Positions 3,001 to 40,158 of a stretch of DNA of 64,000 nucleotides are shown piece by piece. Below the pieces are notes generated by a model, which saw only the letters and a program-made list of their open reading frames with translations, was not told where the DNA came from and ran no database searches. Within the stretch, counting starts at the first letter, position 1; each line of letters starts with the position of its first letter. The DNA lies in NCBI GenBank assembly GCA_024743095.1, contig JANSXF010000007.1:1-64000 (forward strand), written 5' to 3'. The stretch comes from Flavobacteriaceae bacterium (GTDB taxonomy: Bacteria; Bacteroidota; Bacteroidia; Flavobacteriales; Flavobacteriaceae). The translations under genes and the position numbers were made by a program.

Positions 3001-3072
3001 TTAAATAGACAAGCTTTACCTTTGCGCCAAAATTTTGAGAAAAAAGTAAAGGTGTATTTCGATAATGATTGA
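1..3072 (+). CDS. DUF4175 family large membrane protein, 5' end outside window
   Basis: The reading frame is open from base 1 through the listed ATG at 28, and residues before that ATG still look like the family, so the true start lies upstream. What is visible is a membrane segment (about residues 32-50 of the listed ORF), an extracytoplasmic beta-rich region to about residue 360, and long Glu/Lys/Gln-rich coiled coil (about 370-640). A Gly/Gln/Asn-rich low-complexity stretch (about 820-900) and another helical end follow. This matches the DUF4175 family of Bacteroidota, whose function is unknown; an envelope role is inferred from its shape. The stop overlaps the start of ybeY by 8 bases, so the two are probably co-transcribed. 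Composition resembles the neighbours. Confidence 0.8.
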   Translation, partial: ENDEKSDLLMASIEQRASGLGPVRFVEAVNFKEGYTYAKYIVIPIVLLAFIWIAGDIVSFFNSHQRVMHYDMAYQRPAPFSFQVLNDSLEVLDNEPLTIKVQTVGDVRPNDVQMVVNGEELLMQKRGGFYYYTFSPPVPETSFYLTANGWNSKSYSIGSYRTPTLVDFSLGLDYPSYLNLMSEEISGTGNAEVPEGTKVRWKIQGDHVDHIQMVTLDTTLSFDRDDKLFTHTKRVYSDLEYELSTSNERVANFEKLFYSLKVVKDDRATVQVDQVLDSLHPNKSYYTGQAADDHGLNEIRLVCYPSDDIDAVQRVPIASPNSNVYQFYYTFPSGLELQAGKKYKLYFEVVDNDGIRGGKVTKSRVFDATLYNRNELKNKELEFQNSTLDKMGQSLEKFKEQEQKLSEINKLQREEKSLSFEDKGQIKNFLQQQQAQEELMQKFSQDLSKSINKGPEGSQMKKMIQERLERQEAQAKKNAQMLEELNKIAEKIDKEDLQKRLEELGKNQGKNTRNLEQILELTKRYYVTEKASQIAKELEELANKQETMSSSEPEATSAEQQEQLNKEFQDLEKEIQELQKDNQQLQKPISFDADKKKTEGVKQDQKEALEEIKKHQEKEESSQSKDKQEAGNNASKKQKSAAQKMREMSQSMKSSSMGGGETDAEDAEMLRQILDNLVTFSFKQEHLFDNIQHADVDISQFSRTVKDQQNLRRLFEHVDDSLFALSLRRAELSEFVNEQITEVYYNIDKSLESIAENQIYQGASYQQYVINATNALADFLANILDNMQQNMMPGQGQGGGQDFQLPDIIKGQQGIQEKMNGSGEKGKQSQGQGQQQGDNEGGQQQGDKGSPGQGKNGENGQNGENGNKGSSNGGEGKSNGNGLGEMDLNEVYEIYKEQQFLRENLEKQLQDMMQESDKNLAKKLIQQMEDFENDLLENGITERIRNKANNIQHQLMKLENASMEQGEKKERESNTNVNQYTNPITTKPELLQDYQNSIEILNRQALPLRQNFEKKVKVYFDND

Positions 3073-3484
3073 CTTTCATTTTAAGAGTGATTTTATACTT
3101 CAGAACAAAACCGACTATGCCGATTGGGTAAGTAGGATTATAGCTTCTGAGAAATGTACTGTAGGACAAATTGATTATATTTTTTGTTCTGACGAATATC
3201 TTTTAGAACTCAATCAAGAGTATTTGAACCATGATACATTGACCGATATTATCACCTTTGATTATGTGGATGGCAGAACTATCTCGGGAGATATTTTTAT
3301 TTCTACAGAGCGGGTGTTTGCCAACGCGAAAGAATTTGAGGTTGATTACGACATAGAACTCCGTAGGGTCATGAGCCATGGAATCCTCCACCTTATCGGT
3401 TATGGGGACAAGGCGCCAGAACAAACACGGATAATGCGTGAAAAGGAAGAAGAGAAAATTAAAATGTTCCACGTGGAACCATAG
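3065..3484 (+). CDS. ybeY: Endoribonuclease YbeY (rRNA maturation and quality control)
   Basis: A 139-residue protein of normal length for YbeY, a zinc-dependent endonuclease needed for 16S rRNA 3'-end maturation and ribosome quality control. The metal site HGILHLIGYGD is at about residues 105-115. The third ligand is Asp where proteobacterial enzymes have His, which I recall as usual for Bacteroidota. The ATG overlaps the DUF4175 stop by 8 bases, and mnmG starts 3 bases after the ybeY stop, so the three probably form one transcript. The last codons (FHVEP) are written by a parS-like palindrome, so the protein tail may be shaped by that DNA site. Confidence 0.95.
   Translation: MIDFHFKSDFILQNKTDYADWVSRIIASEKCTVGQIDYIFCSDEYLLELNQEYLNHDTLTDIITFDYVDGRTISGDIFISTERVFANAKEFEVDYDIELRRVMSHGILHLIGYGDKAPEQTRIMREKEEEKIKMFHVEP
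3465..3480. other. parS-like centromere site (15 of 16 bases), inside the ybeY 3' end
   Basis: TGTTCCACGTGGAACC differs only in its last base from a perfect 16-base palindrome of the parS type (consensus TGTTYCACGTGRAACA). It lies at the very end of ybeY, 6 bases before the mnmG start. parS sites are loading points for ParB in chromosome segregation and cluster near the replication origin. An intact partner lies 1.9 kb downstream on the other side of mnmG, which makes a chance match unlikely. Confidence 0.75.
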
Positions 3485-3486
3485 CT

Positions 3487-5355
3487 ATGTTTGAAAAGGA
3501 ATATGATGTAATTGTTGTTGGGGGAGGCCACGCAGGGGCAGAGGCTACAGCGGCCGCTGCCAATATGGGCTCCAGCACTTTGTTGGTTACGATGAACCTT
3601 CAAACCATTGGACAGATGTCCTGTAATCCCGCGATGGGCGGGATAGCCAAGGGGCAAATAGTTCGTGAAATTGACGCCCTTGGAGGCTACAGCGGGATAG
3701 TTACGGACAAGTCTGCCATACAGTTCAAAATGTTGAACAAATCCAAAGGTCCGGCCATGTGGAGTCCACGTGCCCAGAACGACCGAATGCGTTTTGCGGA
3801 AGAATGGCGAATGGCTTTGGAAAACACCCCAAATGCTGATTTCTATCAGGAGATGGTCAATGGTTTGTTGATTGAAGGGGATAAAGTTGTCGGCGTAAGA
3901 ACCAGCCTTGGCCTGGAGATTCGTGCCAAAGCGGTAGTACTCACCAACGGGACTTTTTTAAATGGATTGATCCATATCGGGGAGAAGCAATTAGGGGGAG
4001 GTAGAGCAGGAGAGAAAGCAGCAACGGGGATAACCGAGCAATTGGTGGAACTTGGTTTTGACAGCGGCAGAATGAAAACCGGAACCCCTCCACGGGTTGA
4101 TGGAAGGTCTTTGGATTACTCCAAAATGATACCACAGCCTGGCGATGAACAACCGGAAAAGTTCTCCTACTTGAACACACCAATTCTTCAAACACAACGT
4201 GATTGCCACATGACCCACACCAGCAAACTGGTCCACGATTTGCTTAGGGAAGGGTTTGATCGTTCGCCGATGTTCAATGGAAGAATTCAAAGCTTGGGGC
4301 CTCGATATTGTCCCTCAATTGAAGATAAAATAAATCGTTTTGCCGATAAGGATGCTCATCAAATTTTTGTGGAGCCAGAGGGTTGGAACACCGTTGAGGT
4401 TTACGTAAATGGCTTCTCGACTTCCTTGCCCGAGGACGTGCAATACAAAGCGCTAAAATCTGTAGTAGGATTTGAGAACGTAAAGTTTTTTAGGCCGGGT
4501 TATGCCATCGAATATGATTATTTTCCACCGACACAATTAAAGCATACACTCGAAACAAAGTTGGTCAACAACTTGTATTTTGCAGGACAGATCAATGGAA
4601 CAACGGGCTACGAAGAGGCAGCTTCGCAAGGTTTGATGGCAGGCATAAATGCCCACCTAAAAATCAACGAAAAAGAGCCATTTATCTTAAAAAGGGACGA
4701 GGCTTATATAGGCGTCCTGGTCGATGATTTGATAACAAAAGGAACCGAAGAGCCTTATCGAATGTTTACATCGCGCGCCGAGTATCGCACCTTATTAAGG
4801 CAAGATAATGCGGATTTGCGACTGACCCCAAAGGGATATGAAATAGGTTTGGCCAAAGAAGAGCGCCTCAAACGGATGGAGGAGAAGATGAGCAAGTCGG
4901 ATAATTTTGTGGATTTTTTTAAGAAGACAAGTTTTACTACGGACGAAATCAATCCTATTTTGGAGTCGTTGGATTCATCTTTGGTAAAGCAATCGGACAA
5001 ATTGTTCAAGGTGTTTTCAAGGCCAAAAGTTACCATGGACCACATGCTCCAATTGGTATCCGTATCCGAGTTTGTAAAGAATAATGATTTGGATACCGAG
5101 GTCTTGGAACAGGCCGAAATACAGGTAAAATATTCCGGTTATATCGAAAAGGAAAAGACCAATGCGGATAAACTACAGCGGTTGGAAAATGTGCGTATCC
5201 CGGATAATTTTGATTATTCAAAACTTAAATCCCTGTCTTACGAAGCCCGTGAAAAGTTGGAGTCCATTCAACCGGTCACCATATCACAGGCATCACGGAT
5301 AAGTGGTGTTTCCCCGGCTGACATCAGTGTGCTTTTAGTGTATTTGGGCAGGTAA
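3487..5355 (+). CDS. mnmG: tRNA uridine-5-carboxymethylaminomethyl synthesis enzyme MnmG (GidA)
   Basis: A 622-residue protein, full length for MnmG. With MnmE it installs the cmnm5 group on the wobble uridine of several tRNAs, using FAD, NADH and methylenetetrahydrofolate. The FAD-binding motif VGGGHAGAEA is at residues 11-20, followed by the family signature MSCNPAMGG near residue 45, and the C-terminal helical domain that contacts MnmE is complete. It follows ybeY by 3 bases. parS-like palindromes lie on both sides. In many bacteria gidA sits near the replication origin, which agrees with the parS sites, but no dnaA or parAB is in view. Confidence 0.97.
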   Translation: MFEKEYDVIVVGGGHAGAEATAAAANMGSSTLLVTMNLQTIGQMSCNPAMGGIAKGQIVREIDALGGYSGIVTDKSAIQFKMLNKSKGPAMWSPRAQNDRMRFAEEWRMALENTPNADFYQEMVNGLLIEGDKVVGVRTSLGLEIRAKAVVLTNGTFLNGLIHIGEKQLGGGRAGEKAATGITEQLVELGFDSGRMKTGTPPRVDGRSLDYSKMIPQPGDEQPEKFSYLNTPILQTQRDCHMTHTSKLVHDLLREGFDRSPMFNGRIQSLGPRYCPSIEDKINRFADKDAHQIFVEPEGWNTVEVYVNGFSTSLPEDVQYKALKSVVGFENVKFFRPGYAIEYDYFPPTQLKHTLETKLVNNLYFAGQINGTTGYEEAASQGLMAGINAHLKINEKEPFILKRDEAYIGVLVDDLITKGTEEPYRMFTSRAEYRTLLRQDNADLRLTPKGYEIGLAKEERLKRMEEKMSKSDNFVDFFKKTSFTTDEINPILESLDSSLVKQSDKLFKVFSRPKVTMDHMLQLVSVSEFVKNNDLDTEVLEQAEIQVKYSGYIEKEKTNADKLQRLENVRIPDNFDYSKLKSLSYEAREKLESIQPVTISQASRISGVSPADISVLLVYLGR

Positions 5356-5365
5356 GTTTAGGATT

Positions 5366-5381
5366 TGTTCCACGTGGAACA
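5366..5381. other. parS site (perfect palindrome)
   Basis: TGTTCCACGTGGAACA is a perfect 16-base inverted repeat and a full match to the parS consensus TGTTYCACGTGRAACA. It lies 10 bases after the mnmG stop in a non-coding gap, so coding constraint does not explain it. parS is the ParB-CTP loading site for chromosome segregation. With the near-identical copy at 3465 it suggests this region is origin-proximal. Neither ParA nor ParB is encoded in the window. Confidence 0.85.
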
Positions 5382-9165: not shown

Positions 9166-10317
9166 TTATGCGGCCTTGGTATGCAAGAGCCGTGTAAGTT
9201 TTATGGACAGATCGGTGAAGATCAACTTGGAATTTCCATTGCGTTCCACGTGAAAAATGGCCTGTTCCAACTCCTTCACAATATCCAAAATATTGTTTTC
9301 ATGTACAAAGGGCGCAAACTTTTTCAGATCAAAACCCTCCATGTGGACCTTGGCATGCACCAGTTCGTCGGCCCTGTAATTTAGCAAAAGCGCCTGGCGC
9401 ATCATGGTAAGGCAATAGTTCAAGAACTTTTTTTGGACCTCGCGGCCCGTTTTGGACACTTCCTCGCCCCATAAGATCAGTTCCTGAACGGCCCCCTTGT
9501 TTCCCTTTGCCTTAAAGGCGCTGCGTACCCATTGTACGAACCAGCGCTCAAAAACCAAGTCTTCCGAGTCCTTGTTCAAAAGGTCCAGTGCCTTGTTGAA
9601 ATTCCCATTGGCCTCCAGGGCAATGGTGAGCGCCTCTGTCTGTGCAACGCCCCGAATCAAAAGCGCATCGGTGATCGCCTGTTCCGCCAAAGGAGGGAAA
9701 TGTAGAATTTGACATCTGGAACGGATCGTATTGATGATCTGCTCCTCTTCCTCCGCCAAAAGCAGCAATATGGTCTTATCCGGCGGTTCCTCGATCAATT
9801 TCAAGAGCTTATTGGCAGCAGAGGTATTCATTTTTTCCGCCATCCAAACGATCAGGACCTTATATCCCCCTTCATAGGATTTCAGGGAGAGTTTCTTTAC
9901 CATGTCCTGGGCTTCATCGACCCCGATCTGTCCCTGTTTTTTTTCGATGCCGATGTGCCGGTACCAATCAAAGAGGTTGCCATAGGGCTGTTCCTTCACA
10001 AATTGTCGCCATTCCCCCAAATAGTGGTCGCTCACGGCATGGGATTTTACCTTGTCCGAATTGGAAACGGGAAAGGCAAAATGTAGGTCAGGGTGTGTCA
10101 ACGAATTACATTTCGTGTTACAGACCGTATTTTCCCCGTTATTTTCGCCACCCGTGTTGGCACAGAGCAAATATTGTGCATAGGCCAGCGCCATGGGAAG
10201 CACCCCGGAGCCCTCGGGCCCCACGAACAATTGTGCATGGGCCACTCGACCGGTATCGGCAGTGGTTATCAGATGGCTCTTGATATGCTCTAACCCTAAA
10301 ACATTTTTAAAAAGCAT
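9166..10317 (-). CDS. holB: DNA polymerase III subunit delta' (HolB)
   Basis: A 383-residue clamp-loader subunit when started at the ATG at 10317 (MLFKNVLGLEHIK), the typical family start. The tracked ORF adds 24 unlikely residues. The AAA+ fold is visible: HAQLFVGPEGSG as a P-loop-like region, a Cys pair region (LLCAN, CNTKC), and the family signature KLLKLIEEPPDKT with NTIRSRCQ downstream. Delta' lacks true ATPase activity and here the P-loop is degenerate (GPEGSGV), as usual. Its product loads the sliding clamp during replication. A TATCTTTG promoter box on the minus strand lies only 4 bases before the ATG. Confidence 0.93.
   Translation of the reverse strand: MLFKNVLGLEHIKSHLITTADTGRVAHAQLFVGPEGSGVLPMALAYAQYLLCANTGGENNGENTVCNTKCNSLTHPDLHFAFPVSNSDKVKSHAVSDHYLGEWRQFVKEQPYGNLFDWYRHIGIEKKQGQIGVDEAQDMVKKLSLKSYEGGYKVLIVWMAEKMNTSAANKLLKLIEEPPDKTILLLLAEEEEQIINTIRSRCQILHFPPLAEQAITDALLIRGVAQTEALTIALEANGNFNKALDLLNKDSEDLVFERWFVQWVRSAFKAKGNKGAVQELILWGEEVSKTGREVQKKFLNYCLTMMRQALLLNYRADELVHAKVHMEGFDLKKFAPFVHENNILDIVKELEQAIFHVERNGNSKLIFTDLSIKLTRLLHTKAA
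9242..9257. other. Degenerate parS-like palindrome within holB
   Basis: CGTTCCACGTGAAAAA keeps the CACGTG core and 14 of 16 bases of TGTTYCACGTGRAACA. It lies in coding sequence (FHVE on the minus strand). On its own it would be ignored; it is listed because a perfect and a near-perfect site lie 4-6 kb away. Binding by ParB is doubtful. Confidence 0.3.
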
Positions 10318-10321
10318 GGAC

Positions 10322-10329
10322 CAAAGATA
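10322..10329 (-). promoter_or_regulatory. Candidate -7 box for holB
   Basis: On the minus strand this reads TATCTTTG, a match to TAnnTTTG, and ends 4 bases before the preferred holB ATG. Transcription would then begin at or within a few bases of the start codon, giving an almost leaderless message. No -33 element was identified. Confidence 0.4.
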
Positions 10330-10466
10330 CATTTTTAAGTGTGGAAGTTTTACAGGATACCTTTGGAGGGTCCATTGCGGGCTTAACATATCGAACCGAA
10401 AAGGTTAAAAAGGGATAAACTTTGAAATAATGGCCCGGTCCGACCACGGAAAAAGCAGGAAATCTT

Positions 10467-11807: not shown

Positions 11808-13409
11808 ATGAAACAGAATTTAAGCATAGCTGTTTTTGCTGTTTTCCTATCAGCAAGCCCCTTTGTGCGTGCACAACAATCCGATGTTCTGCAGCAAAAA
11901 GGGAAGGATTCCATCTCCCAGCAAGAAGGGGAAAAGGCGGCCATAACGGTTTCCAACATCAAGATAGATGGTCAGCTTATGGCCTTGGAAACGCACGAAG
12001 ACGGAAAGTTTAAACTGCGAGATCTTGAGGAAGCTTGGCGATATGACAGCCTTTGGCTAAAGGAACTTCACAGCAATGCCGATTTGTTCAGTGATATGTT
12101 GTTGGAGATTCAAAATGATCCCGAACTGGAGGAAGCCTTTGAAGTGGATTTACCGACGGACACCCTCAAAGCCAGGTTGGCCCGAATGAACGAGAAAACA
12201 CCGTTCAACATTACCTACAACACATCCTTGGAGAGTGTGATCAAATCCTTTTTGACCAGGAGAAGGGACCTGATGCAGCGCATGATAACGGCAAGCCAAT
12301 TTTATTTCCCCTTGTTTGAACAGGAGCTGGACAACCAAAATATCCCTTTGGAAATAAAGTATTTGGCCATTGTGGAATCCGCTCTCAACCCAAAGGCACG
12401 ATCTAGGGTGGGCGCAAAAGGGCTATGGCAGTTTATGTACAGCACGGGCAAAATGTACGGATTGGACGTCAGCAGTTACGTGGACGAAAGGCACGACCCG
12501 ATAATGGCGACCAAGGCGGCCAGCAAATACCTTTCAAGGCTATACGGCATATTTGGGGACTGGGACCTTGCATTGGCCGCATACAACTCCGGACCCGGGA
12601 ATGTGAACAAGGCGATCCGACGCTCTGGCGGATATGAGAACTATTGGAACATCCGTCCATTTCTTCCACGTGAAACAGCAGGATACCTTCCGGCATTCTT
12701 GGCGACCATGTACATTTTTGAATATGCACAAGAGCACGGCCTACAATACAAAAAAGCGGATAGGCCCTATTTTGAGACGGACACCGTTCATGTTAAAGAC
12801 TTGATTACCTTCGACCAGATTTCAAAATTGGTCGATATAGGGACCGAAGAGCTGGAAATGCTCAACCCCGCGTACAAACTCAATATTATACCCAAGGTCG
12901 AAGGAAAGAACTATGCCTTGCGTCTGCCGGTGGCCAAGATAGGCAAGTTTGTTTCCAATGAAGAAGAGATCTATGCCTATGCAAAGAAGGAGTTGGACTC
13001 TTTGGAAAAGCCATTGCCGAACATGGTTACCGCAAACGACCAGATACGGTATCGGGTAAAAAGTGGGGATTATTTGGGCAAGATCGCCGAACAGTACGGG
13101 GTCGGTGTCAGTCAGATAAAGAGCTGGAACGGACTTCGCAGCAACAACCTACGTGTCGGGCAACGCTTGACGATATACCCAAGGAAGCCGTACATCGCAA
13201 AGAGCGCCACCAAGCCCAGCAGCTCCAATTCCGGAACCACTGTTGCCGGGGGCTCCAAGATACATACGGTGCAATCCGGGGATTCACTTTGGACGATCTC
13301 CAAAAAATACCCTGGGGTTTCCATAGAAAATTTACGAGAATGGAACGGTATTAGCGGTAATAACCTAAAACCGGGCACAAAACTTAAATTGTGTGATTGT
13401 TCTTCGTAA
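11808..13409 (+). CDS. mltD: MltD-type lytic murein transglycosylase with two LysM domains
   Basis: 533 residues. A signal peptide (about 1-22, ending VRAQ) is followed by a linker, then a goose-type SLT domain. This has the catalytic Glu at about residue 190 in IVESALNPKARSR, then GAKGLWQFM, YNSGPGNVNKAI and the conserved LPRETAGYLPAF. Two LysM repeats (about 410-455 and 485-530) bind peptidoglycan. The enzyme cleaves the MurNAc-GlcNAc bond with 1,6-anhydro ring formation, in the periplasm or at the outer membrane. The DUF4837 gene follows after 12 bases, probably in the same transcript. Naming as mltD rests on architecture. Confidence 0.92.
   Translation: MKQNLSIAVFAVFLSASPFVRAQQSDVLQQKGKDSISQQEGEKAAITVSNIKIDGQLMALETHEDGKFKLRDLEEAWRYDSLWLKELHSNADLFSDMLLEIQNDPELEEAFEVDLPTDTLKARLARMNEKTPFNITYNTSLESVIKSFLTRRRDLMQRMITASQFYFPLFEQELDNQNIPLEIKYLAIVESALNPKARSRVGAKGLWQFMYSTGKMYGLDVSSYVDERHDPIMATKAASKYLSRLYGIFGDWDLALAAYNSGPGNVNKAIRRSGGYENYWNIRPFLPRETAGYLPAFLATMYIFEYAQEHGLQYKKADRPYFETDTVHVKDLITFDQISKLVDIGTEELEMLNPAYKLNIIPKVEGKNYALRLPVAKIGKFVSNEEEIYAYAKKELDSLEKPLPNMVTANDQIRYRVKSGDYLGKIAEQYGVGVSQIKSWNGLRSNNLRVGQRLTIYPRKPYIAKSATKPSSSNSGTTVAGGSKIHTVQSGDSLWTISKKYPGVSIENLREWNGISGNNLKPGTKLKLCDCSS
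12662..12677. other. parS-like sequence within the mltD-like gene (one mismatch)
   Basis: TCTTCCACGTGAAACA has one mismatch to TGTTYCACGTGRAACA, at the second base. It encodes the strongly conserved LPRET motif of the transglycosylase, so protein constraint can explain most of it. It is listed because it is the fourth such site in the first 13 kb. Confidence 0.35.
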
Positions 13410-24633: not shown

Positions 24634-25499
24634 AAGGAATCATTTTGGCAGGAGGAACAGGTAGCAGGCTGCACCCACTTACCCTTTCGGTAAGCAAGCA
24701 GTTGATGCCCATTTACGACAAGCCGATGATTTACTATCCCCTTTCTACTTTAATGTATGCAGGAATCCAGGAAATATTGATTATTTCTACTCCAAAGGAC
24801 CTTCCGCTGTTTAAAGAACTGTTGGGAGATGGGAAGAAGTATGGATGTTCTTTTTCTTATGCAGCTCAAAAATCTCCAAATGGATTGGCGGAAGCCTTCA
24901 TCATTGGAGAAGATTTTATCGGTAAGGACAAAGTTGCATTGGTTTTAGGAGATAATATTTTCTACGGAGCAGGCTTATCCAAGCTTTTACAAACTAATAA
25001 TGATCCCGATGGAGGAATTATTTATGCCTATAGGGTAAACGATCCAAAACGATATGGGGTAGTGGAGTTTGATGGGGAAGGAAAGGCCATCAGTATTGAA
25101 GAGAAACCCAAAGAGCCTAAATCCAATTATGTGGTGCCGGGGATTTATTTTTATGACAACGATGTGGTTTCCATTGCCAAAAGTATCGAACCTAGTGCTA
25201 GGGGGGAATTGGAAATCACAGATGTTAATAGAGAATATCTGAAAAGAGGTAGGCTCAATGTAAGTATTTTGGATAGGGGTACAGCGTGGCTGGACACTGG
25301 AACATTTCAAGCACTAATGCAAGCATCGCAATTTGTAGAGGTGATTGAAGAACGACAAGGTCTTATAACAGGATCTATAGAAGTGGCCGCCTATGAAATG
25401 GGTTATATCGATGAAAATCAGTTGAAAGATTTGGCTGAACCCTTAATGAAGAGTGGTTATGGCAAAAGATTGTTGGGCATATTGAACAAGGAAGCATGA
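24630..25499 (+). CDS. rfbA: Glucose-1-phosphate thymidylyltransferase (RfbA)
   Basis: 289 residues. It begins [18 protein letters not shown], the nucleotidyltransferase signature, and keeps [10 protein letters not shown] with the metal-binding Asp and [17 protein letters not shown]. It joins dTTP and glucose-1-phosphate to give dTDP-glucose, the first step to dTDP-rhamnose and the usual point of feedback by the end product. It overlaps rfbB and rfbC by 4 bases each, a tight translational unit. Confidence 0.97.
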
Positions 25500-26029
25500 T
25501 AAAAGCGACAGAGACAACCCTGAAAGGATGCTTTATAATTGAACCTCAGATTTTCGAGGATGAACGGGGGTATTTTTTTGAGAGTTTTAATCACAAAGAG
25601 TTTTGTGAGGCGATAGGTCAAGAAATAAACTTTGTGCAGGACAACCAATCTTTTTCCAAAAAAGGAGTGTTGAGAGGTTTGCATTTTCAAAAAGGAGAAC
25701 ATGCCCAGGCAAAGCTGGTTTCTGTCCTGTCGGGAAGAATTCAGGATGTAGTGGTCGATTTGCGTAAAGATTCTCCTACCTTTGCGCAACATTTTTCGAT
25801 TGAGCTAAGTAGTGAAAACAAAAAGCAACTGTTTGTGCCAAGAGGGTTTGCCCACGGGTTTTTAACGTTGAGTGAATCTGCAAATGTATTTTATAAGTGT
25901 GATAATTACTATAATAAAAAAGCGGAGTCAGGAATTAAGTTTGATGATAGTAAACTGGCAATTGACTGGAATATAAGTTCACATGAGATTTTGCTTTCTG
26001 AAAAGGATAATACACAATGGACTCTGTAA
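25496..26029 (+). CDS. rfbC: dTDP-4-dehydrorhamnose 3,5-epimerase (RfbC)
   Basis: 177 residues, a cupin-fold enzyme of standard length. The start [19 protein letters not shown], the catalytic His near residue 63 in [18 protein letters not shown], and [14 protein letters not shown] are all family hallmarks. It epimerises C3 and C5 of the 4-keto sugar before RfbD reduces it. It overlaps rfbA by 4 bases, which completes a four-gene dTDP-L-rhamnose set. From about here to 41 kb the sequence becomes increasingly A+T-rich. Confidence 0.96.
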
Positions 26030-26099
26030 ATACTCAAAAATTAAGGCTGTCCTCCAAACTACTAGATATAGTTTGCATGACAAAGGCAACAAAAAGAAT

Positions 26100-27236
26100 A
26101 TGTTGAAGAAGAAGAAAAACCTTATTGTTTTTGGAACTCGACCAGAGGCGATAAAAATGTCCCCTTTGGTTAAGGAGTTTGAGAAACATTCTGATGAATT
26201 TGACACTAAAGTTTGTATTACTGCCCAGCATAGGGAAATGTTAGATCAGGTTCTTTCTTTTTTTGAGATAGAACCAGATTATGATCTTAATCTTATGAAA
26301 CCCAATCAAAACCTTTATAGTTTAACGGCAGACATCATACAGAACCTTAAGGTTGTGTTGGAGGATTTCGAACCAGATTACGTATATGTTCATGGAGATA
26401 CAACAACTACAATGGCCACAAGTATCGCTGCTTTTTATTCTGGATCCAAGGTGTGTCATGTTGAAGCAGGATTGAGGACCTTCAATAAAAAATCACCCTT
26501 TCCAGAAGAAATGAACAGATGTGTTACGGGGGTTGTAAGCGACATACATTTTGCACCTACCCAAACATCCAAAGAAAATCTTTTAAAAGAAAACAAGCCC
26601 CCCAAATCAATTCTTGTAACGGGAAATACTGTGATTGATGCACTACATTTAAGTGTCTCCAAGGTCAATGCCCAAACATATGACCACCCGGAAATAAGCA
26701 TGTTGTCCCAAATTTTAGACCCTGATAAAAAGCTTGTTTTGGTAACAGGTCACCGCAGGGAAAATCATGGGGATGGGTTTTTGAGTATTTGTGAAGCTTT
26801 AAAGGAAATTTCCCAAAAATATGATGATGTCCAAATAGTTTATCCGGTACACTTAAATCCTAAAGTTCAAGAGCCGGTATACAAAATACTTGGTGATGTT
26901 CCGAACATAGAATTGATAGCCCCTTTATCTTACCCGTCCTTTGTGTGGCTTATGAATCAATCTTATATGATAATAACCGACAGTGGAGGTGTACAGGAAG
27001 AGGCGCCAAGTTTGGGGAAACCCGTTTTGGTAATGAGGGATACAACCGAAAGGCCAGAGGCGGTCGATGCCGGAACTGTTCTTTTGGTCGGGACCAACAA
27101 GGATTTAATTGTCTCAAAAGCATCTAAACTTTTAGAAAATAAAAATGCTTACGATGAGATGACCAAACTGCACAACCCTTATGGTGATGGCATGGCAAGC
27201 AAAAAAATTGTAGAACATATAAGAAAGCAAAAATGA
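26100..27236 (+). CDS. wecB: UDP-N-acetylglucosamine 2-epimerase, WecB type
   Basis: 378 residues from the ATG at 26100 (MLKKKKNLIVFGTRPEAIKM). The tracked start at 25983 lies inside rfbC and adds 39 residues unlike the family. Motifs GTRPEAIKM (about 12-20), HGDTTTTMA, VEAGLRTF, GHRRENHG and TDSGGVQEEAP define the non-hydrolysing epimerase that interconverts UDP-GlcNAc and UDP-ManNAc. wecC follows with a 4-base overlap, so the pair should make UDP-ManNAcA. A second, WbpI-like epimerase is found 4 kb downstream. Confidence 0.95.
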   Translation: MLKKKKNLIVFGTRPEAIKMSPLVKEFEKHSDEFDTKVCITAQHREMLDQVLSFFEIEPDYDLNLMKPNQNLYSLTADIIQNLKVVLEDFEPDYVYVHGDTTTTMATSIAAFYSGSKVCHVEAGLRTFNKKSPFPEEMNRCVTGVVSDIHFAPTQTSKENLLKENKPPKSILVTGNTVIDALHLSVSKVNAQTYDHPEISMLSQILDPDKKLVLVTGHRRENHGDGFLSICEALKEISQKYDDVQIVYPVHLNPKVQEPVYKILGDVPNIELIAPLSYPSFVWLMNQSYMIITDSGGVQEEAPSLGKPVLVMRDTTERPEAVDAGTVLLVGTNKDLIVSKASKLLENKNAYDEMTKLHNPYGDGMASKKIVEHIRKQK

Positions 27237-28456
27237 ACAACCCTTCGGTGGTAATGGTAGGATTAGGCTATATAGGTCTTCCTACAGCAGCATTGGTGGC
27301 TCAGAAAGAAACAAAAGTATTCGGAGTAGACATTAACCAGGAAGTGGTTGATACTATAAATGCTGGAAAAATCCACATTGTGGAACCAGAGTTGGATGTA
27401 GCAGTTTCTAAAGCAGTTGCTTCTGGGTTTTTGAAAGCTGGGACACTGCCGGTTCCTGCGGACACCTTTATAATTGTGGTACCGACGCCGTTCAAAGGAA
27501 AGAATGAACCGGATATATCCTTTGTCCAGGCCGCAACCAAGTCCGTCTTGCCTTTCTTAAAGGAGGGGGATTTGTATATAATTGAGTCAACTTCACCGGT
27601 AGGAACTACGGAAAAGATGCGTGATTACATATACCAAGAAAGACCTGAGCTTGAAGGTAAGATTTATATTGCATACTGCCCTGAAAGAGTGTTGCCTGGT
27701 AATGTTATGTATGAGCTGGTCAACAATGATAGGGTAATCGGGGGAATCGACGATGAATCCACCGACAAGGCCGCTAACTTTTATGCGCAGTATGTCAAAG
27801 GAAGTCTGCACAAGACTAATGCGCGTACTGCTGAGATGTGCAAGCTGGTAGAAAACTCTTCAAGAGATGTACAAATTGCCTTTGCCAATGAATTATCCTT
27901 GATATGTGATAAAGCCGACATTAACGTTTGGGAGTTGATTGAACTTGCGAACAAACACCCTAGAGTAAATATTCTTCAGCCTGGTTGTGGCGTTGGGGGG
28001 CATTGTATTGCGGTAGACCCTTATTTTATAGTTTCGGACTACCCAATGGAGTCTCAAATCATTGGTAAAGCCAGGGAAATCAACAATTATAAATCATTTT
28101 GGTGTGCTGAAAAGATTAAGAATGTGAAACTGGAATTTCAGTTGCAACACGGAAGAAAGCCTAAAATAGCTTTGATGGGACTGGCATTTAAACCTAACAT
28201 CGATGATCTTAGGGAGTCTCCGGCTAAGTATATTGCACAAAAGGTTTTACAAGACGCCAATGATGAAGAGTATTTTATAGTGGAGCCCAATATTAACGAA
28301 CACAAAGTTTTTAAACTTACAGCGTATAAGCAAGCTGTGGAAAAAGCGGATATTATAGCTTTTTTGGTGGCTCATGATGAGTTTAAAAGTTTGGAAATCA
28401 ATCCGGATAAATTGATTTTGGATTTTTGTGGAGTAGTTGACAAAGTAATTAAATAG
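27233..28456 (+). CDS. wecC: UDP-N-acetyl-D-mannosamine dehydrogenase, WecC type
   Basis: 407 residues. The NAD loop GLGYIGLP (about 10-17), RTAEMCKLVENSSRDVQIAFANE, HPRVNILQPG, and GGHCIAVDPYF with the catalytic Cys near 258 match WecC more closely than WbpA/UDP-glucose dehydrogenases. It oxidises UDP-ManNAc to UDP-ManNAcA with two NAD+. It overlaps wecB by 4 bases and leads the WbpD-like gene by 1 base. The locus lacks a separate WbpA, so either this enzyme or one elsewhere must supply UDP-GlcNAcA for the next four enzymes. Confidence 0.93.
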   Translation: MNNPSVVMVGLGYIGLPTAALVAQKETKVFGVDINQEVVDTINAGKIHIVEPELDVAVSKAVASGFLKAGTLPVPADTFIIVVPTPFKGKNEPDISFVQAATKSVLPFLKEGDLYIIESTSPVGTTEKMRDYIYQERPELEGKIYIAYCPERVLPGNVMYELVNNDRVIGGIDDESTDKAANFYAQYVKGSLHKTNARTAEMCKLVENSSRDVQIAFANELSLICDKADINVWELIELANKHPRVNILQPGCGVGGHCIAVDPYFIVSDYPMESQIIGKAREINNYKSFWCAEKIKNVKLEFQLQHGRKPKIALMGLAFKPNIDDLRESPAKYIAQKVLQDANDEEYFIVEPNINEHKVFKLTAYKQAVEKADIIAFLVAHDEFKSLEINPDKLILDFCGVVDKVIK

Positions 28457-28457
28457 C

Positions 28458-29044
28458 ATGAACAAAAACCTAAAAGACTTCTTTGCACATGAAACCGCCG
28501 TTATTGATAGTGGTTCAATAATTGGAAAGGGCACCAAGATTTGGCATTTTTCCCATATCATGAAAGATTGTAAAATTGGTGAGGCATGTAATATTGGACA
28601 AAATGTGGTTATTTCTCCAAAGGTTATATTAGGAAGAAATGTGAAGATACAGAACAATGTTTCAGTCTACACTGGAGTTGTATGCGAAGATGATGTGTTT
28701 TTAGGCCCTTCCATGGTATTTACAAATGTTATCAATCCTCGTAGTGCCATTAATCGTAGGGGAGAATATGCAAGAACAATTGTAAGGAACGGGGCGTCTA
28801 TAGGAGCTAATGCCACAATAGTTTGTGGGAACGATATTGGCAAATATGCCTTTATTGGAGCGGGTGCAGTAGTAACCAAGAGTGTATCTGATTATGCGCT
28901 GTTGGTAGGTAATCCTGCGAAACAAATTGGCTGGGTGGGAGAATACGGACATAGATTGAAATTTGATAATAACGGAAAAGCAATATGTCCTGAGAGTGGT
29001 CAAGAATACCAGTTGAACAATGAGAAAGTAATACGTATTAAATA

Positions 29045-29045
<1 letters not shown>
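28458..29045 (+). CDS. wbpD: WbpD/WlbB-type UDP-sugar 3-N-acetyltransferase
   Basis: 195 residues of left-handed beta-helix made of hexapeptide repeats (IGKGTKIWHF, IGEACNIGQN, NVKIQNNVSV, GASIGANATI). It has the WbpD-type ending with CPESGQEY. Family members acetylate the 3-amino group of UDP-GlcNAc3NA, giving UDP-2,3-diacetamido-2,3-dideoxy-glucuronic acid. It sits 1 base after wecC and shares one base with the next aminotransferase gene (TAATG), the order expected for this pathway. The catalytic His was not verified by alignment. Confidence 0.88.
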
Positions 29046-31086
<2,041 letters not shown>

Positions 31087-31116
31087 ACAATTACACGAAA
31101 GAATATTTTAGATAGA

Positions 31117-32196
31117 ATGAGAATACTAACAATACTTGGTGCGAGACCACAATTTATTAAAGCCTCATCTTTGAGTAGAGAAATAGCAAAATGTGAATTT
31201 TGTGAGGAAATTATTGTGCATACGGGGCAACACTTTGATGATAACATGAGCAAAATATTCTTTGAAGAAATGAATATTCCCAAACCTAAGTATAATTTAG
31301 AGATAAACAGCCTTTCTCATGGAGCCATGACCGGAAGAATGTTAGAAGAAATCGAAAAAGTAATACTTATTGAAAAACCAGATTGGGTTGTTGTCTACGG
31401 GGACACAAATTCCACTATTGCGGGAGCTTTGGCGGCAAAGAAACTTCATGTTAAAGTAGCTCATGTGGAGGCAGGACTTCGTTCATTTGATATGAGAATG
31501 CCGGAGGAAATCAACAGGATTCTTACCGACCAAATTAGCGATGTTTTATTCTGTCCGACCCAGATTGCTGTACAAAATTTAACTAACGAAGGTTTTCTTG
31601 GAAAAGGAAATAAAATAGTTATGTCGGGTGATATTATGCTAGACAGTGCGCTCTATTATAAAAAAAGTATGAAACGCCCTAAGAGTCTTAGTCAAGAGGG
31701 AGGTTTTAAATTGGTCACCATTCATAGGGAAGAAAACACAAATAGCCCAAAGAGACTTTGGAGTATTATAAATGCCTTGAATATGTTGTCTAAAGAAGGG
31801 CATAATTTGGTTTGGCCAATTCACCCCAGAACAAAAAAAATCATTGATAATTATGACTGGAAAATACACTTCAGATGTATCGACCCAGTCGGCTACTTGG
31901 AAATGCTATACTTAATTAATAGATGTTCACTTGTAATTACTGATAGTGGTGGATTACAAAAAGAAGCTTATTTTTTCGGGAAACACTGCCTTACATTGAG
32001 GGACAGTACTGAATGGGTCGAATTAGTTGAAAACAAAGCGAATACCTTAATTAAAGTAGAAGATGAAACCTTGACAGACGTTCTTAGATGTAATATAGAT
32101 AATAAAGTAGATAACTCAAGTCATTTATACGGTGACGGTAACGCTGCTTTAATTATACTAAATCAATTAAAAGAATCTTTCTCTGTGGGGGTATAG
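31117..32196 (+). CDS. wbpI: WbpI-like UDP-GlcNAc(3NAc)A 2-epimerase
   Basis: 359 residues in the same fold as WecB but of the WbpI subgroup (TILGARPQFIKA, HTGQHFDDNMS, VYGDTNSTIAGALAA, VEAGLRSFDMRMPEE, TDSGGLQKEA). In Pseudomonas aeruginosa WbpI epimerises UDP-GlcNAc3NAcA to UDP-ManNAc3NAcA, the last step. Its place after wbpD-E-B supports that assignment. Having both WecB and this enzyme in one locus suggests two different mannuronic-type sugars in the glycan. Confidence 0.9.
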   Translation: MRILTILGARPQFIKASSLSREIAKCEFCEEIIVHTGQHFDDNMSKIFFEEMNIPKPKYNLEINSLSHGAMTGRMLEEIEKVILIEKPDWVVVYGDTNSTIAGALAAKKLHVKVAHVEAGLRSFDMRMPEEINRILTDQISDVLFCPTQIAVQNLTNEGFLGKGNKIVMSGDIMLDSALYYKKSMKRPKSLSQEGGFKLVTIHREENTNSPKRLWSIINALNMLSKEGHNLVWPIHPRTKKIIDNYDWKIHFRCIDPVGYLEMLYLINRCSLVITDSGGLQKEAYFFGKHCLTLRDSTEWVELVENKANTLIKVEDETLTDVLRCNIDNKVDNSSHLYGDGNAALIILNQLKESFSVGV

Positions 32197-32270
32197 TAAT
32201 CATACACATCTAAGAGATGAATTTGTTTATGAAGAATGTGACTTAATTTATTAAAGGAATAGATATAGAA

Positions 32271-33500
32271 ATGAAAAAAACAATTGTTTTGGCAAGTAGT
32301 CTGGAACCGTGGTCCATTCAGCTCAAATCTGGAGCTCCAAGCTTATATGAAACTTTGAAGGGATATTCCGATGCAGGCTTTTTGACTACTTATATTACAT
32401 ACGAAAAGAGTATTGGGATAACCAACTTGAGTCACTCGCATAATATTGATTTACAATTACCTGGGTTGACCACAATAAGGGTTCCAAAAAAGCAGGCACC
32501 AAGTTTTCTTGGTTCAAGAATAAGCGGCAAAGTTAATCGGGTATATTACGAATCCTGGACTCTACTTGACGCTTTAAGAGACTACCTTGATAAACAAGAA
32601 ACACCCCCAACAATATTATACGCGTATGAGGCCCAAGCAATACATGCCATATCTAGACTAGAAAAAAAACATAAGAACGGTTCAATTATTGTTAACAGGT
32701 ATCAAGGAACAATTCTGGGAGGTAGATATAAACAGATTATCCATTGTCTTAGAAAGTATGAAATGTTCCGGGTTTTGAAGGATAAAGCCGATAAATACAT
32801 CATGACAAATGATGGTACCTTGGGAGACAAGGCTTTGAAATATTGGAACAAATCTGTAGGCAACAATAACCTATTGTTTCTACGTAACGGGTTTAATTTT
32901 GAAAATTTCTTAGGGGAACATAATCGAAAAACAGTAATTGAGTCCCTCGGATTAGCCCCAAATAATTTTTATGCATTTACGGTTTCAAGGCTGACTCTTT
33001 GGAAACGTGTTGATCGTGCTATTGACTTAATTGAGCATTTTCACAGGGCGCATCCTGAGCTTCATTTGATTGTGGTAGGAGACGGGGAACATAAATCAAA
33101 GTTACAGGAGTTTGCTGAAGAAATGAAGGTGACTGATCGGGTTCATTTTATTGGAGCCCAGAGCAGAAAAAAAGTTGCAGAACTAATGGCGAGTCTAGAC
33201 TTGTTTCTTTCCCTATACGATGTTAGTAACTTGGGAAACCCACTTTTTGAGGCAATGATTTGCGGCCAATGCGTTGTTACATTAGATAATGGGTCTACCA
33301 AAGAGGTGATAACAAATAATCAAAATGGTATAATAGTTGAGCCAGACGACAAAGAAAATCTTAATAAAGAGTTTGGCGAGCTTTTAAAAAATGAAAACAA
33401 AAGAAACCGCTTAAAAATCTCCGCTAGAAATTGGGCAAATGAAAACTTGCAGAGTTGGCCGGACCGAATGAAGGAAGAAGTAGAGTGGGTTTTAAAGTAG
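32271..33500 (+). CDS. Glycosyltransferase family 4
   Basis: 409 residues with a GT-B plan. The C-terminal domain is typical of GT4: FYAFTVSRLTLWKRVDRAIDL, LIVVGDGEHKSKLQ, VHFIGAQSRKKVAELM, and the donor-binding region NPLFEAMICGQCVV in place of the usual EGxP...E. The donor and acceptor sugars cannot be told. No signal peptide or strong membrane segment is visible. It lies 75 bases after the WbpI-like gene and converges on the acyltransferase gene on the other strand. Confidence 0.85.
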   Translation: MKKTIVLASSLEPWSIQLKSGAPSLYETLKGYSDAGFLTTYITYEKSIGITNLSHSHNIDLQLPGLTTIRVPKKQAPSFLGSRISGKVNRVYYESWTLLDALRDYLDKQETPPTILYAYEAQAIHAISRLEKKHKNGSIIVNRYQGTILGGRYKQIIHCLRKYEMFRVLKDKADKYIMTNDGTLGDKALKYWNKSVGNNNLLFLRNGFNFENFLGEHNRKTVIESLGLAPNNFYAFTVSRLTLWKRVDRAIDLIEHFHRAHPELHLIVVGDGEHKSKLQEFAEEMKVTDRVHFIGAQSRKKVAELMASLDLFLSLYDVSNLGNPLFEAMICGQCVVTLDNGSTKEVITNNQNGIIVEPDDKENLNKEFGELLKNENKRNRLKISARNWANENLQSWPDRMKEEVEWVLK

Positions 33501-33570
33501 GATTTCAAACTTTTTTAACCGATGTCACGCTTGAAGAACATTTAGGTAAGTGTCATAATGATTTATAACA

Positions 33571-34104
33571 TTATAGGGCAGTGTTTTTTTGAATGATTTT
33601 CCCTGGATTTCCAGCAATAATAAGATTGTCCTCGGTAAAGCTTTTAGTTATTATACTTCCTGCCCCAACAATACAGTTATTTCCTATTTTAACACCCGGA
33701 AGTATAATTACGTTTGCACCAAACCAACAATTGTCACCAATAATTATTGGCTCTGCCTTAACAGATATATCCCGATTAGATTTGTCATGGTTGGAGCTTA
33801 TGAGCCGGAGACCAGGTCCGAACAAAAAATTTCTGCCCAGAAAAATTCCATTAACACTTTGAACATACGAGTTTCCACTAATTGCAAAAGAGGAAAGCGT
33901 GGACAAGTCTTTTTGATAGCTTAGATTATTTCCAACCACCCTGGAGGTAAAGTTTAAGTTGAATTTAACTTTACCCTGAAAACGCAAAACTCTTTGAAAA
34001 AAAAAATTGATACAGTACAAACTAACTCCAGTCCTTTTAATAAGCCGTAATTTAAGATAAAGCCCCTCCCTCTTCTTTATTTGGTCTTTTAAGAATGTTT
34101 TCAT
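33571..34104 (-). CDS. Hexapeptide-repeat acyltransferase
   Basis: 177 residues. The C-terminal half is a left-handed beta-helix (IGDNCWFGANVIILPGVKIGNNCIVGAGSIITKSF) of the LbetaH family, with the usual closing IIAGNPGKIIQKN. The N-terminal part is basic and hydrophobic. These enzymes use acetyl-CoA, or a related donor, to modify sugars; within a polysaccharide locus an O-acetyltransferase is likely. It is encoded on the minus strand with the flippase gene, 9 bases from it. Confidence 0.8.
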   Translation of the reverse strand: MKTFLKDQIKKREGLYLKLRLIKRTGVSLYCINFFFQRVLRFQGKVKFNLNFTSRVVGNNLSYQKDLSTLSSFAISGNSYVQSVNGIFLGRNFLFGPGLRLISSNHDKSNRDISVKAEPIIIGDNCWFGANVIILPGVKIGNNCIVGAGSIITKSFTEDNLIIAGNPGKIIQKNTAL

Positions 34105-34113
34105 GTTTTCTGA

Positions 34114-35607
34114 TTAGTTAAATTGCTTTAAAATGACCAACAAATGATTTTTGAATTTTTTGTTGACAATTAGCAGAATGGAATAATATATTACAAAACA
34201 TACAATTAAGAATAAAATATTTTGCCAGAGCATCATGGTAAAATGGTCTTTGATCAGGTAAATAGGAATCAGAATAAAGGCACATGTAAAGGTCAAAGAT
34301 AAAATAGATCTAAAGGGTATAATATCAGAAGAGCTAACTTTTAATCTTTTCACAATTTTGTACAACAACAACCCTATTATTCCAATTTTGACCAGTAGTG
34401 AAATGGCTGGAACGATATATGGAGTCATTTTAAAATTAAGGGCCGACCACTGAAGCCCCCATACAACTATTACTGCTCCAAAATGGACTCTGTTATAAAA
34501 CCGGACTTCTTGCAGTGCTATAATTATAGGTAAAAAAACAAATACGGAAAAAAGATTGTAAGTTGAAATTATTTTAAAAAACCCTGATGAGTTCTTATAG
34601 ATTTCATCAAATAGGATAGAGAATATCTCATCACTTGCAAACCAAATGAAAATAATTATTGGATACACCAAAGTGACCGATTTTGATATAGAATTTTTTA
34701 TGGTTTTGGCGATTTCCATTTTTGTGTCTGGGTCGTTCAACTTTTTTACAAAATATGGATGAAGAACCGCGCTGATAGAGCCAATTAGTACTCCAATAAA
34801 AGGAATCTTGATAGATCCATTCGAGAAATCTGCATAGATTTCTTCACCGAAATAATTACTGATATAATATTGATCAGATGAAGTGAATAAAATAGCCCAG
34901 ATAGATGAAAAGGTGAGGGGAATCAAAAAGTTATATATTTTAAAGTAGGATACTCCACATTTTTTTGAATAGACTTTTAAAAACGGCAAATAGATTAGAT
35001 ATATACCCAAAAGAAAAGAGAAAGCTGCTTGAATAGCCCAAAATGACATCATTCTATTTAGACTTCGCTCTCCAATGAATAGTGGCACAGACAACATGAT
35101 AAAGAATAATACCTTATTGAACACCAAGTACATGCCATAAGTCTGTGTTCGTTTATAACTAGCATATATGCCCTCAATAATTAAAGTAGGTATTGTAAAA
35201 AAAACAACTATTGAAAAAATACGAAGCGGGGCCTCCAATTGTGGATTGTTGAAAAAATCACATAACAGTGGGGCCCCAACAAATACAATTGCAGCAAAGC
35301 ATAAGGCAGTAAATGCCAGAACAGTCATTAATTTATTGATTAAATCCTTACCTTTTTCCAAGGAAAATAAAGGCAAATAATTTGAAGGCAACTTGGAAAG
35401 GCTTAAGCCGATCACTGAAATAATGGTAGTATAAACGTACATTATTTGCCGAAATGAACCATACTCACTTTTGATTAGAAAGCGACTAATGAAGACCATT
35501 AGTAAAATGGAAATGATGGACACAATAGAGTTACCAATCCCAAGCCATGATGCTTGAATAAAGTTACTTTGATTTCCCAATAGTTTTTTTAATTGCACTT
35601 TCTGCAT
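34114..35607 (-). CDS. wzx: Wzx-type polysaccharide flippase
   Basis: 497 residues with roughly 12-14 hydrophobic helices and the polysaccharide-flippase look (SWLGIGNSIVSIISILLMVFISRFL, KSEYGSFRQIMYVYTTI). Such proteins of the MOP superfamily move undecaprenyl-linked repeat units across the inner membrane. It is on the minus strand together with the acyltransferase gene, divergent from the wzy-like genes across a 210-base A+T-rich gap that probably holds both promoters. Very A+T-rich codon use, as usual for wzx genes. Confidence 0.88.
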   Translation of the reverse strand: MQKVQLKKLLGNQSNFIQASWLGIGNSIVSIISILLMVFISRFLIKSEYGSFRQIMYVYTTIISVIGLSLSKLPSNYLPLFSLEKGKDLINKLMTVLAFTALCFAAIVFVGAPLLCDFFNNPQLEAPLRIFSIVVFFTIPTLIIEGIYASYKRTQTYGMYLVFNKVLFFIMLSVPLFIGERSLNRMMSFWAIQAAFSFLLGIYLIYLPFLKVYSKKCGVSYFKIYNFLIPLTFSSIWAILFTSSDQYYISNYFGEEIYADFSNGSIKIPFIGVLIGSISAVLHPYFVKKLNDPDTKMEIAKTIKNSISKSVTLVYPIIIFIWFASDEIFSILFDEIYKNSSGFFKIISTYNLFSVFVFLPIIIALQEVRFYNRVHFGAVIVVWGLQWSALNFKMTPYIVPAISLLVKIGIIGLLLYKIVKRLKVSSSDIIPFRSILSLTFTCAFILIPIYLIKDHFTMMLWQNILFLIVCFVIYYSILLIVNKKFKNHLLVILKQFN

Positions 35608-35817
35608 AAAAAAAGGATAATTCTTAGGAGGAATATTTATATTGAAACCTCAATTTTAATCAAATTTATCAAGATTCTTTCTATGCTCAATGATTCACTT
35701 TAAATTAAGTTTGAAGAAAAGGAATTTCAGGATGTTGGTTTCTCCTTTGCATGGTCTTTTTTGTGCTCATAGGCTATTATAAATAAGTATTTTTACAACT
35801 GTTGAACAAAGTATACT

Positions 35818-37038
35818 TTGAAAATCAAAGCATTTTATTTAGACTATCTTATCATATTTTTGTTAAGCTTCGTACTTTTAATTGATTCAATTAATGGTTA
35901 TTTTAAACTTACCAATAGTGCTTTTACCTTTCCACTAAGTCAATTATATAAAACGGGGATTTTAATATTGATAATGTTTCGTTTACAACGAAAAATTATT
36001 TACTTAATGTCCTTTGGAATAATTTTTTTTATTCTTTTGCTACCCACTTTTATCCAAATTTTACAGGGCAAAGAGGTAAGTTTATATTCAGATGGGTTGA
36101 AAATAATAAAATACCTTACTCCATTTTTGTGCTTCATTTACTTTAGGGAGGTTTTTCTCCAAAACTCTAAAAAAACCATCAACAAACTTTTTCTGTTTGT
36201 TAAATTATCCTATGCTGTTGTCGTAGCAAATGTATTGCTTAAATTTATTGGACTCGGTTTTCCTTTGTATAGAGGAGGGATAGGAAGCAAGGGTTATATC
36301 TACGCCGGAAATGAAATATCGACAGTATTTTTGATATTATACGCGATACTTGGATATAGATTGTTAGAGCAAAATAAAAAGATTTCTTTTTGGCTATTTT
36401 TTGGGTTTACCGTAAATATAGCTTTTGTATTAGGCTCTAAATCAGCGATCTTAGGAATAGTTTTGATAACACTAATAATGAAAATCAGACTTAAGGCCAT
36501 TTTATCATCCTTTAAAAAAACAGTAACCTTTCTAATTGCTGGGGCAATAATCATACCGATAGGAATATTTTGGTTTGTTAACAGGTTTATGAGTTCTGAT
36601 CTGTTTCAAAACAGGATTTTATATTATTACAACAAAGTTGATATTCTGACCCTTTTGTTATCAAGTCGAAATTTATATTTAGAAAAGACTTATAATACCT
36701 TTAAAAGGGAATATAATTTGTTAGAGAAAATTTTTGGGATTGGCCAAAGTAAATATGAAGAAATGGTAGAAGATACCATAGAAATTGATTTTTTAGATTT
36801 TTTCTTTGCTTATGGGGTTTTTGGACTCATTCTTTTTTTGGTTGTTATGTTTTTGACATTTCAAATATTGAGAAAACGGAAAGATTTTTCTAAATACCCC
36901 TATGCAAGATTAGCTTATGTAGCTTTTCTATTGTTGATTACGATTTCCTCTTTGGCAGGTCATGTGTTTTCTTCCGGAATAGCGGGTATTTTTATCGGAT
37001 TTATTTTTTCTATGACTTATTTAAAAAGAATCGTTTGA
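35818..37038 (+). CDS. wzy: Wzy/O-antigen ligase-like polymerase, TTG start
   Basis: 406 residues with about ten membrane helices and a larger periplasmic loop near residues 260-320 (RNLYLEKTYNTFKREYNLLEKIFGIG), the plan of O-antigen polymerases and ligases. No ATG is available near the start: an in-frame stop lies five codons before the TTG at 35818, and the first membrane helix follows directly, so TTG must be the start. The next gene overlaps by 4 bases as TTGA. Sequence conservation in this group is low, so polymerase versus ligase is undecided. Confidence 0.75.
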   Translation: MKIKAFYLDYLIIFLLSFVLLIDSINGYFKLTNSAFTFPLSQLYKTGILILIMFRLQRKIIYLMSFGIIFFILLLPTFIQILQGKEVSLYSDGLKIIKYLTPFLCFIYFREVFLQNSKKTINKLFLFVKLSYAVVVANVLLKFIGLGFPLYRGGIGSKGYIYAGNEISTVFLILYAILGYRLLEQNKKISFWLFFGFTVNIAFVLGSKSAILGIVLITLIMKIRLKAILSSFKKTVTFLIAGAIIIPIGIFWFVNRFMSSDLFQNRILYYYNKVDILTLLLSSRNLYLEKTYNTFKREYNLLEKIFGIGQSKYEEMVEDTIEIDFLDFFFAYGVFGLILFLVVMFLTFQILRKRKDFSKYPYARLAYVAFLLLITISSLAGHVFSSGIAGIFIGFIFSMTYLKRIV

Positions 37039-38300: not shown

Positions 38301-38362
38301 AAGTGTTTAGGAGATATACGATTTTCAAATGAATTCTATAGGTTGAATAAAATCTAAACTGG

Positions 38363-40146: not shown

Positions 40147-40158
40147 CTAGCTTGACAA

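Follow-up and report, generated by a model that had tools for sequence, protein, structure and literature searches.

The 16-bp palindromes that flank mnmG in the DNA analysed here are almost certainly centromere-like parS sites which, judged from their sequence and distribution, have been kept at mnmG across flavobacteria and mark the region of the replication origin. The window, as the whole stretch of 64,000 nucleotides is called below, is the left end of contig C80 of a Flavobacteriaceae bacterium whose 4.04-Mb genome is a 112-contig draft. We regard as highly probable the explanation as a whole, in which the sites are the chromosomal parS of a flavobacterial ParABS system and lie near an origin that is remote from dnaA; ParB binding, spreading, the role in segregation and the exact origin are the parts of this explanation that we infer.

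Sites were scored against the 16-bp palindromic parS consensus TGTTYCACGTGRAACA, and ybeY, mnmG, holB and mltD were identified from open reading frames and NCBIfam models. The features are collected in Table 1.

Table 1. parS-like sites and the genes that carry or adjoin them in the window (contig C80).
Feature	Position	Strand	Description
parS site 1	3465..3480	.	TGTTCCACGTGGAACC, 1 mismatch (15/16); encodes YbeY C-terminus MFHVEP
parS site 2	5366..5381	.	TGTTCCACGTGGAACA, perfect (16/16); non-coding, 10 bp past mnmG stop codon
parS site 3	12662..12677	.	TCTTCCACGTGAAACA, 1 mismatch; mltD codons for LPRET
Weak parS-like site (doubtful)	9242..9257	.	CGTTCCACGTGAAAAA, 2 mismatches; holB 3' end, peptide FHVERN
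ybeY (rRNA maturation RNase)	3065..3484	+	TIGR00043, 93.8 bits over cut-off; host of site 1
mnmG/gidA	3487..5355	+	TIGR00136, 855.8 bits over cut-off; between sites 1 and 2
holB-like (DNA polymerase III delta')	9166..10389	-	TIGR00678, 170 bits, just under 180.6 cut-off; hosts weak site
mltD-like lytic transglycosylase, LysM domains	11808..13409	+	NF008050, 210 bits, under cut-off; hosts site 3

The original prediction had placed one perfect and one near-perfect palindrome beside mnmG, the first non-coding and the second forming the end of ybeY. Both lie where it put them, with zero and one mismatches, and the codons at site 1 are ATG TTC CAC GTG GAA CCA TAG (MFHVEP*). The sites at 12662-12677 and 9242-9257 are additional to these two, and the three parS sites and the weak fourth match the consensus with 0, 1, 1 and 2 mismatches. 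That such palindromes are unlikely to arise by chance, a further part of the prediction, is borne out at the scale of the genome; the excess within the window alone is modest (four matches with three mismatches or fewer, against 1.06 expected). Only five distinct places in the whole genome match with up to two mismatches, and four of them make up a 9.2-kb cluster on contig C80. The CACGTG core is missing from the fifth (C64:28347, TGTTTCAGGAGAAACA), and all CACGTG-core matches of the genome fall inside the same 9.2 kb. The sites are not spread round the chromosome, and their genome-wide clustering is far beyond chance. By sequence they are canonical, ordinary parS and predicted targets of ParB. 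The site at 9242 is doubtful as a parS, because its sequence is common only to Flagellimonas (L178) and the other relatives have at least four mismatches there; it was rejected as a conserved site.

Matches with at most one mismatch were present in 199 of 201 Flavobacteriaceae genomes, typically as two sites about 1.9 kb apart, which is the length of mnmG. At 80 named mnmG loci from Flavobacteriaceae, Chryseobacterium and its relatives, and a few Cytophagales (mnmG identity 67-92%), a flanking site was counted when it lay within 300 bp of the gene. The upstream site was present at 76 of these loci, the downstream site at 73, and both at 72. In 1.43 Mb of sequence there were 222 parS sites, as against 2 matches to the reversed pattern. 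When 226 sites were compared, the hairpin letters were nearly invariant, and free variation was limited to the Y/R positions and the outermost base at each end. G100 and G186, two of the 201 family members, have kept ParB (66% and 62% identity), and neither an mnmG gene nor a credible parS was found in either genome, sites and gene being missing together. Two-mismatch matches at unrelated places in G100 and G186 were considered as remote parS and set aside as chance-like. On one Capnocytophaga contig (L243), mnmG is present and no parS sites were found. Loci of the flavobacterial mnmG-parS type also occur in L195 (Limnohabitans MAG20) and L225 (Chitinophaga pinensis bin), which are probably mixed bins or wrongly named. 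In three Flavobacterium loci (L207, L212 and L215), parS-like sites form arrays between ybeY and mnmG, with about a dozen sites at most, some spaced by ~117 bp and others by ~45 bp; in L207 the gap between the two genes exceeds 1 kb, which we read as a centromere expansion.

The relation of the sites to coding sequence differs among genomes. In about half of the mnmG loci, as judged by tblastn, the upstream site lies in frame in the YbeY tail, which then ends in FHVEQ, FHVEH, FHVEP and similar peptides. A few loci carry it in the two other ybeY reading frames, and in the remainder the site is intergenic, YbeY having an unrelated tail and stopping before it. Since the upstream site persists whether in frame or intergenic, it appears to be the DNA that is kept, with the protein end following. 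In mltD, the 14-mer CTTCCACGTGAAAC is identical in 11 of 27 genes (share 0.41), out of 1152 possible synonymous encodings of LPRET. This share is the highest among the conserved pentapeptides of the gene; the next non-overlapping one reaches 0.23 and has only 96 encodings. The state of the 14-mer requires six changes on the mnmG tree, with at least five of the changes forced by well-supported branches, so the mltD site is not a single inherited copy. These data point to selection on DNA at the mltD site, though some room is left for recurrent drift.

The genome encodes three ParB_N proteins. One of them, encoded on contig C4 (301 aa; L009 1384-2289), has the motif GERRFRA and is immediately preceded by parA (257 aa, KGGVGKTTT), which ends just before parB and provides the expected ParA partner. 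The genome's dnaA is on contig C56, and the earlier statement that neither parAB nor dnaA is in the window holds. Relatives of the C4 ParB in 10 genomes are 62-85% identical to it, and it matches solved Spo0J/ParB structures. Specificity residues were mapped by motif and by counting onward from the HTH without gaps; numbered as in PMC7383237, the HTH region has Q162, G170, K171, R173, N178, G201 and R204, with K at the position of S172. The combination R173 and G201 directs binding to parS, and Q173 with R201 to the Noc site (PMC7383237). By this mapping, the C4 ParB carries the parS-reading and not the Noc-site residues, as predicted of the cognate ParB.

The position of the origin was fitted in seven single-contig relatives from the third-codon-position GC skew of sampled 20-kb stretches. 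As originally predicted, the skew origin is close to parS: the skew flips from negative to positive beside parS-mnmG, and parS lies ~0.02 Mb or less from the best-fit interval in six of the seven genomes and 0.29 Mb from it in the other (G117). The best-fit intervals are 0.14-0.20 Mb wide, which gives roughly a 4-8% chance per genome of parS falling so close, and all seven lie on the 5' side of mnmG. The switch is 0.72-1.85 Mb from dnaA and 0.66-1.34 Mb from parB. Continuous readings placed the changepoint at 1,339-1,345 kb in G122, where mnmG starts at 1,376 kb, and at 381-389 kb in G046, where mnmG starts at 361 kb on the reverse strand. The changepoint is 25-36 kb from mnmG on its 5' side in these two genomes, and an origin placed at parS itself is clearly worse, with a log-likelihood lower by 38 (G122) and 17 (G046). 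The continuous reading of G117, which is rearranged, gave no distinct switch position. In the relatives, tens of kb thus separate parS from the origin, which lies 5' of mnmG. In the genome studied here, mnmG begins 3.5 kb from the left end of the contig and reads rightwards, and the entire contig leans to positive skew. Given the switch 5' of mnmG in the relatives, the origin is predicted to lie beyond the left edge of the window, which is the contig end; this placement relies on the relatives, since the genome itself is a draft in 112 contigs. The proposal that the window is near the origin is supported, in that the skew switch is near parS in the relatives, with the refinement that the switch itself, tens of kb 5' of mnmG, is predicted to fall outside the window.

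The intergenic region between rpiB and rnr is a candidate for the flavobacterial oriC. It sits at the skew break in G122 and G046 and ranks with the most AT-rich 300-bp stretches of the sequence read in all three genomes concerned (G046, G122 and G117); the gene beside it reads as ribonuclease R (rnr), judged by its protein sequence. The region contains an element, ATTAACANNCTATNATAAYNAY, with related forms in ten or so such loci (L088/L054 in G046, L077/L039 in G122, L094/L022 in G117, and L188, L227, L229, L232, L244, L250 and L253). At up to one mismatch in 11 genomes, the element occurs as a single copy in eight and is absent from three. In seven of the eight (G046, G117, G122, G138, G011, G116 and G101) it lies 9-52 kb from mnmG-parS. 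In G182 it is on another contig than mnmG-parS, and this match may be due to chance because the reversed control gave three matches. The element was not found at one mismatch in the genome studied here. No cluster of canonical TTATCCACA DnaA boxes stands out around parS in the window and three relatives, and the rpiB-rnr region is likewise without one. Variant boxes (TTATTAACA) number 38 versus 12.4 expected from shuffles, with a weaker enrichment against AT-rich control windows. An rnpA-like gene lies ~4 kb beyond the rpiB-rnr element in G046 and G122.

In ParABS systems, ParB is loaded at parS, where it closes into a CTP clamp that slides along neighbouring DNA, and ParA moves the complex. 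The C4-encoded ParB would accordingly be expected to recognise the 16-bp palindromes near mnmG, load there as a CTP clamp, and then slide and spread over the adjoining DNA, and ParA would move the ParB-DNA complex, which would give the newly replicated origin region the lead in segregation. The parS sites would share one replichore, some tens of kb away from the origin, with mnmG pointing away from the latter. The origin would be located not at dnaA but 5' of mnmG, most likely at rpiB-rnr, which in this genome would be on another contig past the left edge. ScpA (PF02616) was found neither in this genome nor in 10 relatives by a search whose control finds ScpA in nine of 14 genomes. Given this absence, loading of SMC in the usual sense is unlikely, although another condensin may be present, and loading at these sites would mean ParB nucleation for ParABS. 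The ParB loading cluster of the original prediction stands in that sense and not as a site of standard SMC-ScpAB recruitment. If ScpA is indeed lacking, ParB may recruit something else or nothing at all. We lean, by a little, towards a broader reading: that the flavobacterial oriC is far from dnaA and lies in the AT-rich rpiB-rnr region, where ATTAACANNCTATNATAAYNAY (at most one in each searched genome) marks it; that the parS pair flanking mnmG, 9-52 kb away, is ancient and stayed in place while parAB and dnaA moved; that ParABS operates there without SMC-ScpAB; and that the parS letters in ybeY and mltD are kept by selection on DNA and not on protein.

It is very unlikely that the palindromes have nothing to do with ParB and serve instead as regulatory elements or terminators for the ybeY-mnmG region. 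In favour of this reading, site 2 has a terminator-like score and TCGCTTTTTTT after it, and a run of five T occurs within 20 bp of 13 of 74 downstream sites, versus 7% of random 20-mers. However, most downstream sites have no T-run, and a terminator needs no fixed hairpin letters, yet these are nearly invariant over the 226 sites apart from the Y/R positions and the ends. A terminator at site 1, directly before the mnmG start codon, would block mnmG. The sites also multiply into arrays and occur in other nearby genes, and their letters are those of the ParB consensus.

Highly improbable, too, is an origin at dnaA, with the parS cluster as an origin-distal centromere. The choice of dnaA as the start by databases and authors is frequent (the sequences of G117, G122 and G011 begin at dnaA, with parS about 0.9-2.0 Mb away; for P. 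gingivalis see PMC5771137), and parAB is within ~0.1-0.35 Mb of dnaA in several genomes. Against this, an origin at dnaA fits the skew of the seven genomes with scores of -0.18 to 0.12, near or below zero, whereas an origin at parS scores 0.36-0.61, and gut Bacteroidetes behave likewise by Hi-C and read coverage in the sections of PMC10197239 drawn on here. That the sites are bound by Noc, for nucleoid occlusion, and not by ParB has almost no probability, even though the Noc model TIGR04285 is the NCBIfam model that the C4 ParB matches best: the score of 242 bits is under the model cut-off of 315. The Noc-NBS system of Firmicutes is alike in having a paralogous DNA-binding protein and a related 16-bp palindrome, but Noc needs Q173 and R201, where the C4 ParB has the ParB residues R and G. 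Noc sites are spread round the chromosome, unlike origin-clustered parS; here the sites are clustered at the origin, and parA precedes the C4 parB. Taken together, these observations favour parS sites of a ParABS system near a dnaA-remote origin.

The Spo0J-parS system of Bacillus subtilis and the ParB-parS system of Caulobacter are alike in the palindrome, the GERRxRA motif, the parS-reading residues and the location of parS near the origin. In these two bacteria parAB is in the gid/oriC gene cluster, whereas flavobacterial parAB is about 0.66-1.34 Mb from the skew origin in the relatives; both also have ScpA (control rows of the search), which is absent here. Closer to the present case, the sections of PMC10197239 used here report for 12 gut species, including two Bacteroidetes, that parS clusters at the origin and that dnaA is not always found there, and that no known condensins were found in the two Bacteroidetes. 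The parS of Bacteroides caecimuris and Muribaculum intestinale have the same 16-bp consensus and are clustered at the GC-skew origin (PMC10197239). Location of parS at the origin, origins away from dnaA in some species and, in two Bacteroidetes, missing condensins are, on the evidence of those sections, already reported for gut bacteria. They cover gut Bacteroidales and others, with Hi-C, and they do not describe the mnmG-flanking position, the sites embedded in ybeY and mltD or the flavobacterial candidate oriC. No description of the mnmG-flanking arrangement or of a flavobacterial oriC was found in the literature covered, which excludes the main parS survey, and priority is therefore not claimed.

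The useful point is one of position: mnmG-parS, and not dnaA, would mark the origin in a large, ecologically important family. dnaA routinely sets position 1 of finished genomes, and analyses that take it as the origin (coverage-based replication rate, gene dosage, strand bias, inversion symmetry) would give wrong results in such genomes. The mnmG-parS module may serve as a simple origin marker that is usable in draft assemblies, and with a candidate oriC the flavobacterial origin becomes open to a direct test. Farther into the window, at 25496-42284, open reading frames alone indicate a polysaccharide (O-antigen/capsule-like) cluster with glycosyltransferase, flippase-like and polymerase-like genes; at 30-40 kb the G+C drops to 0.31-0.35, versus 0.43 for the contig, which suggests a swapped-in segment near the origin.
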